In this document: positions 1,446 through 50,915 of the stretch, piece by piece
Layout: each line of letters starts with the position of its first letter
Position numbering within the stretch: the first letter of the stretch is position 1
Made by a program: the position numbers and the translations under genes
Assembly (NCBI RefSeq): GCF_900114655.1
Contig: NZ_FOTT01000004.1
Coordinates: 62,001 to 126,000, forward strand
Direction of reading: 5' to 3'
DNA from: Candidatus Frackibacter sp. WG13
Lineage (GTDB): Bacteria > Bacillota > Halanaerobiia > Halobacteroidales > Acetohalobiaceae
Length of the DNA stretch: 64,000 nt
Notes under the pieces: model-generated
The model's database searches: none
What the model was told of the DNA's origin: nothing
The model's input: the letters and a program-made list of their open reading frames with translations, nothing else

Positions 1446-2640
1446 CTATTTCACCTTTAATAATCTTACCTAATCTATAGATTCCTTCTTCTATTTCATC
1501 TATATCTGGTTGGCTAAATGATAATCTGAAGGCATTATGCCCTTTACCATTAACTTGAAATGCACTCCCGACTACAAAGGCTACATTCTCTTCAATCGCC
1601 TTTAATAAGATCTCTTTAGTATTTAAAAATCCGGGTAATTCGACCCAAGTATAGAAGCCTCCTTCTGGCTCCGTCCAGGTTGCTTCTTGAGGAAAATATT
1701 TAGTTAAAGATTCTAATGTCACATCCCTCTTCTTACGATAAAAGTCTCTTAACTTATTAATCTGTTGATCAATGATACCTGCTTCTCCACAAGCAGTAAT
1801 CAACCGTTGTCCAATTGAATTAGTACATAAGTCTGTTGCTTGCTTAGCTAAAATCATCTTCTGAATTATCTCTTCGTGCGCTACTATCCAGCCAATTCTA
1901 ACCCCTGGAATAAATATTTTAGAAAATGACCCTAAATAGATTACTCTTCCCTCCCGGTCAAAGTTTTTAATAGCAGGCTGTTCGATACCCTCATATCTTA
2001 ATTTGCTATACGGATCATCCTCAAGAATTAAAAATTCATATTCCTCAGCCAATTTCACTAACTTCTTTCGCCGTTCAGTAGCTATCGTCAAACCAGTAGG
2101 ATTATTAAAGTCAGCAACTAAATAGATAAATTTTGGAGTCTCACCTTCACAAGCTAATCTTTCTAACTCTTCCTCTAAAAGATCTATTCTAATCCCTTCT
2201 TCATCTACCCCAACACTAATTATATCTCCTTGATAATTATTAATCGCTCCCAACCCTCCTACATAACTAGGAGCTTCTGTTAATACTTTATCTCTTGGGT
2301 CAACAAAGACTTTACTTACTAAGTCTAAACCTTGCTGTGAACCACTAGTAACTAATATATTCTCAATGCCAACTTTGATTCCTCTCTGAGCCATAAATTT
2401 GACTATATACTTCCTTAAATCTTCTTGTCCTTCTGTCGGGCTATACTGCAGCATTCCTTCTTCTGACTCTGCTAATAATCTACTACTCATCTTCTCTACT
2501 GCTGCAGTCGGCAAGCATTCCTTATTAGGAAAACCACCGGCAAATGAAATCACCTCCGGTCGCTCTGTTAGTTCGAAGAACTCTCTAATTTCTGAACCTT
2601 TCATCTTCTGTGCATTCTTAGAAAAATAGTTTTCAAACAT
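1408..2640 (-). CDS. PLP-dependent aminotransferase, class I/II (LysN/MocR-catalytic-domain type)
   Basis: A 410-residue fold-type I aminotransferase. Visible motifs are NNPTG (about 179-183), the cofactor Asp in LEDDPYS (about 207-212), the Schiff-base lysine in SFSK (Lys241) and the substrate-carboxylate arginine in GVRIGW (Arg248). The N-terminal EVISFAGGFPN segment is typical of 2-aminoadipate/aromatic/multi-substrate aminotransferases. There is no GntR DNA-binding domain, so it is an enzyme and not a MocR regulator. The ATG at 2640 has GGAGG 8 nt upstream; the ATG seven codons earlier has no good site. The gene is expressed through a T-box leader (2683-2967), so it probably serves amino acid synthesis or salvage. 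The amino acid is not determined. Confidence 0.88.
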   Translation of the reverse strand: MFENYFSKNAQKMKGSEIREFFELTERPEVISFAGGFPNKECLPTAAVEKMSSRLLAESEEGMLQYSPTEGQEDLRKYIVKFMAQRGIKVGIENILVTSGSQQGLDLVSKVFVDPRDKVLTEAPSYVGGLGAINNYQGDIISVGVDEEGIRIDLLEEELERLACEGETPKFIYLVADFNNPTGLTIATERRKKLVKLAEEYEFLILEDDPYSKLRYEGIEQPAIKNFDREGRVIYLGSFSKIFIPGVRIGWIVAHEEIIQKMILAKQATDLCTNSIGQRLITACGEAGIIDQQINKLRDFYRKKRDVTLESLTKYFPQEATWTEPEGGFYTWVELPGFLNTKEILLKAIEENVAFVVGSAFQVNGKGHNAFRLSFSQPDIDEIEEGIYRLGKIIKGEIAKRSGNQKCIGC

Positions 2641-2682
2641 ACTAAACTCCTCCCTTCTCAATTTTTATTTAATCATTTTTAA

Positions 2683-2967
2683 AATAAAAAAAGCCCTCGT
2701 CTCTAAAATATAGAGACGAGAGCATAGATTACCCGCGGTACCACTCTAGTTATCAAGAATTATAAAAAAGTAATTCTTAACCCCTTATAACTATAACGTA
2801 GTTATAACGTCAAGGTCTACTACTATTTCGACCTCACCACTCCCGGGTGGCAGAATGAATTATTCCTAACTAGAGTTCCTTTCAGCCTATCGAGAACCCC
2901 TCTCTAAAAGTTAGCCCTAACTCTTAGCCCGTTCTTTGTGTTTAAATTATTAACTTTTTCTTGCTTT
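2683..2967 (-). promoter_or_regulatory. T-box leader upstream of the aminotransferase gene
   Basis: The minus strand contains the canonical T-box core GAGTGGTACCGCGGGT (about 2730-2746), followed by a 13-bp hairpin (2692-2723) and a U-run (2683-2691), an intrinsic terminator. The competing antiterminator would form around the T-box core. A long stem I region lies at 2800-2950, with an apical GGCTGAAAGG element. The T-box bulge reads UGGU, which pairs with a tRNA ending A-CCA, so tRNA-Cys and tRNA-Gly (U73) are unlikely. I cannot place the specifier triplet with confidence: GCC (Ala) or a triplet after GAAT are both possible by position. Confidence 0.9.
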
Positions 2968-2973
2968 GATAAT

Positions 2974-3002
2974 ATTATATGCAAATTTTTAAAGAATGTC
3001 AA
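2974..3002 (-). promoter_or_regulatory. Consensus sigma-A promoter of the T-box/aminotransferase transcript
   Basis: TTGACA (3002-2997), a 17-nt spacer and TATAAT (2979-2974): a perfect vegetative consensus on both hexamers. It starts only 13 nt beyond the stop codon of the radical SAM gene, so the aminotransferase is a separate transcription unit. Such a strong promoter suits a gene whose output is set by T-box attenuation. Confidence 0.9.
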
Positions 3003-3014
3003 GAATTTTTATTT

Positions 3015-4013
3015 TTAATTCCAAATATTAATCTTCACTCCACATTCAGGACATAAATCTTCATCTAAATTTAATTTAACTTTTGACCAATCTCTTTCTA
3101 TTAATAATTCCCCACATTGATAACAATATGTATTCCTATATTTACTATCCTGTACATTACCTAAGTAAACAAAGTTCAACTTCTCTTCAGCTAGCTCTTT
3201 AGCTTTAAGCAAAGTTTCTATCGGAGTTATTTCTATCTCTAATTCATATTTGGGAAAGTAACGGGAAAAATGCAATGGAATATTAGGCTCAATTTCTGCT
3301 AACCATCTTACTAAATCTTCTATTTCTTCTTTCGAGTCATTCAAACCTGGAATTAATAAGGTTGTTACTTCTACTAAAGCTTCTTTATTAGCTAATCTAA
3401 TTGTTTTTTTAACCGGTTCTAAATATCCTTGACATATATTACGGTAAAATTTTTCAGTAAAAGCTTTTAAGTCTATATTGAAACCATCAATATAAGGTAG
3501 CAGCTCATTAAAAGGCTTAGAATTAATTACTCCATTAGTTACTAACACATTCTTCATTCCTGCTTCCTTTACTAATTTAGCTGTCTCCAATAAATATTCA
3601 AACCAAATAATCGGTTCTGAATAAGTATATGCAACTCCAATTACGTCATGTTTTTTAGCCGCTGCTACTATCTGTTCAGGAGTTAGAAAGTTAGTTTTAG
3701 CCTGATGATCATGAGCAATATGATGATTCTGGCAGAATTTGCAACTTAAATTACAACCTACTGTACCTATAGATAATATATCAGTATCTGGATAAAAATG
3801 AAAGAGTGGTTTCTTTTCAATAGGATCAATCGCCATCGCACTAGCCTGACCATAGATTTTAGTAATCAATTTACCATTCAGATTTTCTCTCGCTCCACAT
3901 ACTCCCGTCTGCTCTTCATTCAATTTGCAGTTATGAGGACACAAGTTACACTCTACTCTACCTTCAGATATCTTTTCGTACCATTTAGCCTCTTTAATTT
4001 TAGCCTCACTCAT
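3015..4013 (-). CDS. amrS: AmmeMemoRadiSam system radical SAM enzyme
   Basis: A 332-residue radical SAM protein. The [4Fe-4S]-SAM motif CNLSCKFC gives Cys87, Cys91 and Cys94. An N-terminal four-Cys cluster (CNLCPHNC plus Cys39) and a C-terminal CxxC...CxxC ribbon (final 40 residues) probably bind metal. The N-terminus and the HFYPDTDILSIGTVGCN context are those of the radical SAM partner of the AMMECR1/Memo gene triad, long of unknown substrate, related to PflA-type activases. Its start overlaps the end of the LigB-AMMECR1 gene by 8 nt, so the two are translationally coupled and likely act together. It is the last gene of an operon with arginase and ornithine racemase. Confidence 0.9.
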   Translation of the reverse strand: MSEAKIKEAKWYEKISEGRVECNLCPHNCKLNEEQTGVCGARENLNGKLITKIYGQASAMAIDPIEKKPLFHFYPDTDILSIGTVGCNLSCKFCQNHHIAHDHQAKTNFLTPEQIVAAAKKHDVIGVAYTYSEPIIWFEYLLETAKLVKEAGMKNVLVTNGVINSKPFNELLPYIDGFNIDLKAFTEKFYRNICQGYLEPVKKTIRLANKEALVEVTTLLIPGLNDSKEEIEDLVRWLAEIEPNIPLHFSRYFPKYELEIEITPIETLLKAKELAEEKLNFVYLGNVQDSKYRNTYCYQCGELLIERDWSKVKLNLDEDLCPECGVKINIWN

Positions 4014-40033: not shown

Positions 40034-40055
40034 ATCTCCACCTCCCCTTTCAAAC

Positions 40056-40205
40056 TAAAAAAAGCCTCCGCAGACAACTGGAGACCTAAGAACAATTCTA
40101 TCATAAGAGAATTAATGCAGCAAACTAGAACAGCATATTCTCTATCCCCGCCTCGGTGGGTTAATTTAAGCTTTTGCAAGCACCCACTGTCTACAGCTGT
40201 CAATT
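40056..40205 (-). promoter_or_regulatory. L10 leader RNA (ribosomal autoregulatory leader)
   Basis: The minus strand carries the features of the bacterial L10 leader: GACAGTGGGTGC, AAGCTTAA, AACCCACCGAGGC, and a final hairpin GTCTCC/GGAGGC followed by seven U residues just before rplJ. The 3' hairpin acts as an attenuator; L10 binding to the kink-containing upstream part represses its own synthesis in studied species. Confidence 0.85.
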
Positions 40206-40238
40206 TCAGTATTCAATTATTTTTGACTCACAAATGGA

Positions 40239-50645: not shown

Positions 50646-50915
50646 ATAAAAAGACCTCCCCCCCACTGTAGATAAACTACAGAGGCGAAAGGTCCGCGGT
50701 TCCACTCTGATTTTAACCAGACTGACTTACTAAAGTCAACCTGATTCCCTCAATAGTCTTTTAACGGTTCACTAACCGTCATACCCTACTAATTATCAGG
50801 CATGAAGCTCACAGATGCACTTCAACCAATCCTTTCTTAGAGACACTTCCAGCCAATGATGTCTCCTCTCTGTAAAGAAAGCTGTTGGTTTACTTTTCTG
50901 GTCATAGCATTTGGA
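50646..50915 (-). promoter_or_regulatory. Cysteine-specific T-box leader of cysE-cysS
   Basis: The T-box core AGAGTGGAACCGCGGACC (about 50689-50707) is followed by a strong hairpin (50652-50693) and U-run (50646-50651). Stem I has AAAGTAAACCAA, apical GGCTGGAAG and then GGTTGAAG-TGC-A, so the specifier is TGC (Cys, 50819-50817). The bulge UGGA pairs with U73 of tRNA-Cys, an independent match. The leader therefore raises transcription when tRNA-Cys is uncharged. Confidence 0.95.

Follow-up and report, generated by a model that had tools for sequence, protein, structure and literature searches.

The window examined here, a stretch of 64,000 nucleotides from Candidatus Frackibacter sp. WG13, carries a T-box leader upstream of an aminotransferase gene, which raises the question of which amino acid the T-box answers to and what the enzyme produces. 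An initial annotation of this DNA had proposed that the T-box governs a lone LysN/MocR-type aminotransferase and had considered the specifier to be open, with alanine as a tentative reading.

The leader and the gene it precedes

The presence of a T-box upstream of the aminotransferase is borne out by a covariance match to the Rfam T-box model (RF00230) at window positions 2709-2945 (-), with a score of 96.1 bits (E 7.7e-20) that exceeds the gathering score of 93; the T-box is predicted to be of the transcriptional class. The extent originally assigned to the leader is also correct, as a promoter is located just upstream and a terminator hairpin with its U run (2693-2723) closes the leader (Table 1). 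Promoter-like sites in the region 2600-3100 number 3, compared to 1.5 +/- 1.3 in shuffled sequences. Stem I possesses a K-turn, a specifier side loop, and two T-loops that follow the AGAGA/UGxRA consensus given in the available text of a 2020 review (PMC7583486). The pseudoknot pairing of the Stem IIA/B region was assigned by eye only. As had been noted initially, the specifier loop does not have the usual AGUA/GAA pair; in its place are CUAA (2924-2927) on its 5' side and AUUCU (2852-2856), then GCC, on its 3' side. This motif is common but not universal among T-boxes. The specifier loops of T-boxes before ilvE (L149, G053:C124) and cysS (L150, G049:C239) also seem to be without AGUA/GAA, indicating that its loss is not peculiar to alanine, and the T-box L015 has no GAA before the specifier.

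Table 1. Features of the T-box leader and the aminotransferase gene, in window positions
Feature	Position	Strand	Basis or remark
LysN / multiple-substrate-type aminotransferase, 410 aa	1408-2640	(-)	ATG 2640; Shine-Dalgarno 2647-2654
T-box leader RNA	2683-2967	(-)	RF00230 match
Promoter TTGACA-17-TATAAT	2974-3002	(-)	12/12 consensus positions, sigma-70-type, immediately 5' of leader
Stem I	2838-2940	(-)	pairs counted on five leaders
Stem I, K-turn stem	CAC 2938-2940 / GUG 2838-2840	(-)	
Stem I, basal helix	CGGG 2928-2931 / CCCG 2844-2847	(-)	
Stem I, upper helix	GAGUUA 2918-2923 / UAAUUC 2857-2862	(-)	
Stem I, T-loop motifs	AGAGA 2901-2905, UGAAA 2880-2884	(-)	consensus from PMC7583486 (available text)
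Specifier GCC (alanine), then purine A2848	2849-2851	(-)	invariance in leaders and register test
Stem II with GAA / AGUA (S-turn)	2812-2835	(-)	6 pairs: 4/6 changed on both sides, 100% of cells paired
Stem IIA/B region with CGUUA	2785-2810	(-)	3 nested pairs, invariant and hence uninformative
Stem III	2753-2780	(-)	Rfam alignment
Antiterminator with T-box bulge UGGUACC	2712-2747	(-)	UGGU at 2740-2743
Intrinsic terminator, 13-bp hairpin, then U run	2681-2723	(-)	end of leader

The gene that follows the aminotransferase (702-1445) is convergent, so the aminotransferase is alone in its transcript, as the initial annotation had described it. The designation LysN/MocR-type holds in its first part, since the best solved relatives of the protein are multiple-substrate aminotransferases and LysN. 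The similarity to 1wst (multiple-substrate aminotransferase), 3aov (PH0207), 2egy (LysN), and 2zc0 (alanine-glyoxylate transaminase) is full-length, with E values of 6e-71 to 1.6e-112, a kinship by sequence alone. LysN works in lysine synthesis. MocR proteins are defined by a DNA-binding domain, and the second part of the designation does not hold, as this N-terminal domain is absent: residues 23-390 correspond to positions 90-447 of the PdxR profile, below its cut-off, and the NCBIfam matches to MocR-like regulators, likewise below cut-offs, cover only the aminotransferase part of the profiles.

Two other regulatory RNAs were observed in the window. A second, ordinary T-box at 50678-50914 (-) (121.7 bits) precedes cysE-cysS, reads UGC (Cys) in the standard register, and has the bulge UGGA, while a ribosomal protein L10 leader is located at 40047-40214 (-) (59.5 bits).

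Identity of the specifier

Four orthologues from the same family (68-77% identity) also have an upstream T-box, with scores of 81.5 to 97.9 bits, and together with the window leader these form a set of five long leaders. In their alignment all five retain GCC, the purine next to it, and the CCC paired to GGG, and the bases directly 5' of GCC are mostly variable; after the basal helix the five read CUAA, UUAA, UUAA, UCAA, and UUAA. The structure was drawn on the window leader, itself one of the sequences counted, which favors the fraction of paired cells (97.6% of 165) and does not affect the double changes in the same manner. Of 33 pairs, 13 changed on both sides compared to a shuffled mean of 3.9, a count that none of 500 shuffles reached. 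All slid registers of the drawn structure fare far worse. The antiterminator helices are paired in 45/45 cells with no pair changed on both sides, showing no covariation beyond shuffles, and the terminator helix is paired in 100% of cells with one pair changed on both sides, which is not above shuffles. The terminator and antiterminator pairings are mutually exclusive, and both can form in all five leaders.

The reading of the specifier has also been probed with a fixed register, defined as a triplet followed by one free base and four helix bases before NGAGY. When two anchors were listed, the choice was decided by pairing of the four bases with the 5' strand, and the controlled genes were named by eye. 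Applied to the other T-boxes of the window genome, this register gives Met, Val, Cys, Phe, Thr, Ile, and Gly for metG, valS, cysE-cysS, pheST, thrS, ileS, and glyQS, respectively (7/7 right), and with the frame moved by one base in either direction 0/7 are right. The T-boxes of relatives yielded 35 decoded rows at 34 distinct places, two of them without a nameable gene, and 31 of the other 32 give the right or a compatible amino acid. The single miss (L154, before cysE) results from a wrongly chosen anchor and by eye reads UGC, Cys. A proB leader of the same class (L151) reads CCC (Pro) in the standard register. Read in the same way, the window leader gives GCC (Ala).

The window genome encodes a tRNA-Ala(GGC) that ends in A-CCA (A73) and matches the UGGU of the bulge, so that an alanine codon in the specifier register is accompanied by a bulge base complementary to base 73 of tRNA-Ala. 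The initial claim that UGGU excludes Cys and Gly stands, and a Cys reading (UGC) of the window leader was rejected because tRNA-Cys has U73 where UGGU needs A73. The discriminators of Thr (U73), His (C73), and Asn, Asp, Gln, Glu, Ser, and Trp (G73) in this genome are also incompatible with UGGU. A search with ARAGORN of the loci around 58 RF00005 matches in the draft assembly found no tRNA-Ala(UGC) and no tRNA-Ile(GAU).

On the comparison of orthologous leaders, the specifier is GCC, alanine. This settles what the initial annotation had left open and confirms, along with the register test, its tentative reading of GCC followed by A and CCC. According to the available text of PMC7583486, C is generally preferred in the third position of specifiers, to which GCC conforms. 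The published alaS T-boxes use GCU, as stated in the available text of PMC4695836, PMC2494555, and PMC7778990, a point against the alanine reading of the window leader. As described in accessible parts of PMC4695836, the alaS T-boxes of Clostridium acetobutylicum and Bacillus subtilis are similar to the window leader in that they are transcriptional, respond to tRNA-Ala with A73, and have a UGGU bulge. In contrast, they control alanyl-tRNA synthetase with GCU, while the window leader places GCC before an aminotransferase. In addition, the Stem II of the B. subtilis alaS leader is described there as being without the loop E motif and having a non-canonical GA motif, whereas the window leader has the motif in Stem II and is without it in the specifier loop.

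Predicted role of the aminotransferase

The comparisons described above make it probable that the leader is a T-box that acts by transcription attenuation and senses tRNA-Ala(GGC) via GCC, and that the enzyme produces alanine by transamination of pyruvate. Under alanine shortage, uncharged tRNA-Ala would pair its anticodon with GCC and its ACCA end with UGGU, and the bound tRNA would stabilize the antiterminator, allowing RNA polymerase to read into the aminotransferase gene. Charged tRNA-Ala would leave the 13-bp terminator to form. The aminotransferase would be made in alanine starvation and would then supply alanine from pyruvate, with glutamate and/or branched-chain amino acids as the predicted donors. 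This reading assigns a likely product to the aminotransferase in ten genomes, where sequence alone gives no substrate, and makes a direct test of the enzyme possible.

The descent of the gene has been examined with a tree of 24 aminotransferase homologues, in which the midpoint root serves for drawing only. The ten genes with a GCC T-box are all on one side of a branch of 15 rows (100/99). Within this branch the five holders of long leaders form one set (100/99), and five holders of the ultrashort leaders described below share the other, ten-gene set (100/99) with five genes without a T-box match at E 0.01, one of which (L032) has only about 290 bases of upstream DNA. These five of 15 members count against the alanine reading. 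The nine homologues outside the branch, including second copies in G001 and G030, have no T-box match, indicating that the T-box tracks orthology, not the fold.

The surroundings of the gene are rich in leu and ilv genes; names were checked against families for G016 and part of the G041 genes and assigned by eye for the rest. An FAD-linked oxidase and ilvD lie near the aminotransferase in the window genome (G000), G001, and G004, and the aminotransferase comes after leuC-leuD-leuB and citramalate synthase in G016, G028, and G030. In G041 it lies behind leuB and has no T-box there. These neighbors suggest that branched-chain compounds are partners of the enzyme, and the gene context is as much in favor of branched-chain amino acids as of alanine. 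The window genome and all five genomes with ultrashort alanine leaders encode alanine dehydrogenase, and consequently the aminotransferase is not the sole possible source of alanine; G004, alone among the same-family genomes, gave no match to this enzyme.

The adjoining leu, citramalate synthase, and ilvD genes are also what favors a different assignment, in which alanine is sensed but the main task of the enzyme is in branched-chain metabolism, with alanine serving as donor for valine, leucine, or isoleucine or with excess alanine being removed. We regard this as unlikely, as a T-box that is on when charged tRNA is short fits the making of alanine and not its spending, and as ilvE is present in the window genome and, of the five genomes with ultrashort alanine leaders, in all but G030, where it was not found. 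The kinship of the protein to LysN (2egy) and to kynurenine/aminoadipate aminotransferases could point instead to a 2-aminoadipate or aromatic aminotransferase whose T-box answers Lys, Phe, Tyr, or Trp. However, none of the ten leaders has a codon for any of these amino acids in the specifier register, the Trp tRNA has G73, and with multiple-substrate enzymes as the best solved relatives the kinship says little about the product, making such a role highly improbable.

Proline would be read if the specifier were shifted by one base in the 3' direction, which would place the enzyme in a proline response. All ten leaders have CCA or CCG at that place, and tRNA-Pro(UGG) has A73. The shifted triplet is nevertheless one base off the register that decodes 7/7 known genes and in which the proB leader reads CCC, and it would leave no purine between specifier and helix. 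The proline reading (CCR) was rejected on register, and there is very little chance that it applies.

If the enzyme forms alanine, as preferred here, its metabolic place may be like that of AvtA, the E. coli valine-pyruvate transaminase that converts pyruvate to alanine at the expense of valine (PMC7066862, available text). By analogy, the window enzyme would form alanine from pyruvate in connection with branched-chain metabolism, with branched-chain amino acids or glutamate as donors, and would be switched on at alanine shortage. In contrast, the closest solved relatives of the window protein are in the LysN/multiple-substrate group, and the accessible portion of PMC7066862 does not mention T-box control of AvtA.

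Several observations concern other genes near these loci or other T-boxes of the window genome. In G016, G030, and G049, three of the five genomes with ultrashort alanine leaders, a BtuC-like permease is encoded after the aminotransferase in the same orientation (L158 2073-5603, L161 1845-5392, L159 5145-7499), and in two of these a BtuD-like ATPase is also present; the permease in L159 (G049) and the ATPase in L161 were assigned by eye. These genes may form an operon, one that has no evident connection to alanine. Tandem T-boxes that read CUC (Leu) and then AUC (Ile) precede ilvB some 4.2 to 4.7 kb ahead of the start of the window (G000:C34:57315-57791 (-)), with no terminator seen between the two. 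A further tandem pair (L001 and L003, G000:C14:39147-39680 (+)), both with CUC (Leu), lies before an acyl-CoA-synthetase-like gene (L176 3278-4900, by eye), perhaps, as a guess, part of an isovalerate-to-leucine route. A T-box with UCC and the bulge UGGC (Ser) (L004, G000:C16:12149-12362 (+)) is located before a second, unrelated aminotransferase that by eye is serine/glyoxylate-like.

Ultrashort Stem I leaders in related genomes

Five remoter orthologues (G016, G049, G028, G030, G053; 43-48% identity) have an upstream T-box of 48.2 to 66.0 bits in which Stem I is ultrashort. It is made up of a K-turn, a four-pair helix, and a nine-base loop, A[UC]UAAGCC[AG] (AYUAAGCCR; n=5), and is followed by Stem II, a IIA/B element, and a UGGUACC bulge. 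All five share GCC as the specifier, and the short helix shows changes on both sides in three of its four pairs, with one of 20 cells unpaired. That the ultrashort form is an artefact of alignment was rejected, as the helix covaries and the K-turn, Stem II, IIA/B element, and T-box bulge are in the expected places. The form also occurs before ileS in another family (L078 1501-1579 (-) in G034; L090 1501-1606 (-) in G036), where the loops, by our own pairing, are AAUAUCA and AAGAUCA, respectively, with the specifier AUC and a terminator hairpin.

In all seven ultrashort leaders (L023, L024, L025, L027, L028, L078, L090) the specifier is in the apical loop of a short hairpin and there is no distal Stem I. 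Each also has a hairpin with a U-rich tail before the gene, identified with a script limited to hairpins followed by 5 or more U within 7 bases, and not the arrangement of a translational switch acting on Shine-Dalgarno access. The seven score 48.2 to 84.2 bits compared to the RF00230 gathering score of 93, and annotation at this cut-off would consequently miss them; three of the five long alanine leaders are also just under the cut-off. Long and short leaders share (Y)YAA on the 5' side of the break and GCC on its 3' side, which suggests that the short form may have arisen by loss of everything between this tetranucleotide and the specifier.

According to the available text of the 2020 review (PMC7583486), a long Stem I is generally needed by transcriptional T-boxes, and most translational T-boxes have an intermediate or ultrashort one. 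The ultrashort T-boxes of Actinobacteria (Sherwood et al. 2015, as described in that text) are mostly translational. They resemble the seven leaders in that Stem II is present and the very short Stem I carries the specifier in its apical loop. In contrast, the seven have intrinsic terminators and come from the class of the window, whose own leader has a long Stem I. The short leaders thus oppose the generalization, at least as worded in the portion of the review at hand. One alanine-regulated orthologue has a long leader in one family and ultrashort leaders in three others, ileS has ultrashort leaders in a fifth, and all have intrinsic terminators, which makes it reasonably likely that transcription-attenuating T-boxes can work without a distal Stem I that contacts the tRNA elbow. 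If so, these leaders would offer a natural long/ultrashort pair for probing the purpose of the elbow contact. The ultrashort, terminator-bearing leaders of the orthologues are the novel part of this analysis. The switch in the window belongs to an established type, and its specifier loop is without the usual motif. Among the titles and abstract openings retrieved on ultrashort or truncated T-boxes and on alanine T-boxes with aminotransferases or in Halanaerobi-, none treats this case, and novelty in print is not claimed.

Surveys were carried out with models of the five ultrashort alanine leaders (R1), all seven ultrashort leaders (R2), and the long alanine Stem I (R3). With R3, the class yielded only the five founders (121.8 to 137.8 bits), the next places being at most 67.9 bits; 34 of these weaker places were decoded, and none reads Ala. 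With R1, the class yielded 23 places, namely the five founders (at least 82.8 bits) and 18 weak ones, all inspected by eye: the two ultrashort ileS leaders, an intermediate form (L082), a coding sequence (L077), and 14 ordinary long T-boxes that matched mainly via Stem II. R2 gave 35 places in the 59 genomes of the class, of which the seven ultrashort leaders (5 Ala, 2 Ile) scored at least 59.8 bits and the remaining 28 at most 42.5 bits; none of these 28 is ultrashort by eye (G043:C4 and G057:C73 inspected in part), and they include two intermediate Stem I forms (L082, L112) and two coding sequences (L077, L113). In a sample of 398 genomes from the phylum, R2 gave 22 places, two of them founders and none of the other 20 ultrashort, with the ilvB leaders of G003 and G004 among the places. 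Large searches with these models apply stricter filters and lose weak matches, so absence from them is soft. The two intermediate leaders have the AGUA/GAA pair and a distal arm that is just a short hairpin. L082 (1501-1608 (-) in G044) precedes thrS and reads ACC, and L112 (from about 1508 (+) in G052) precedes an NhaC-family-like transporter and reads UAC (Tyr), both genes having been named by eye.
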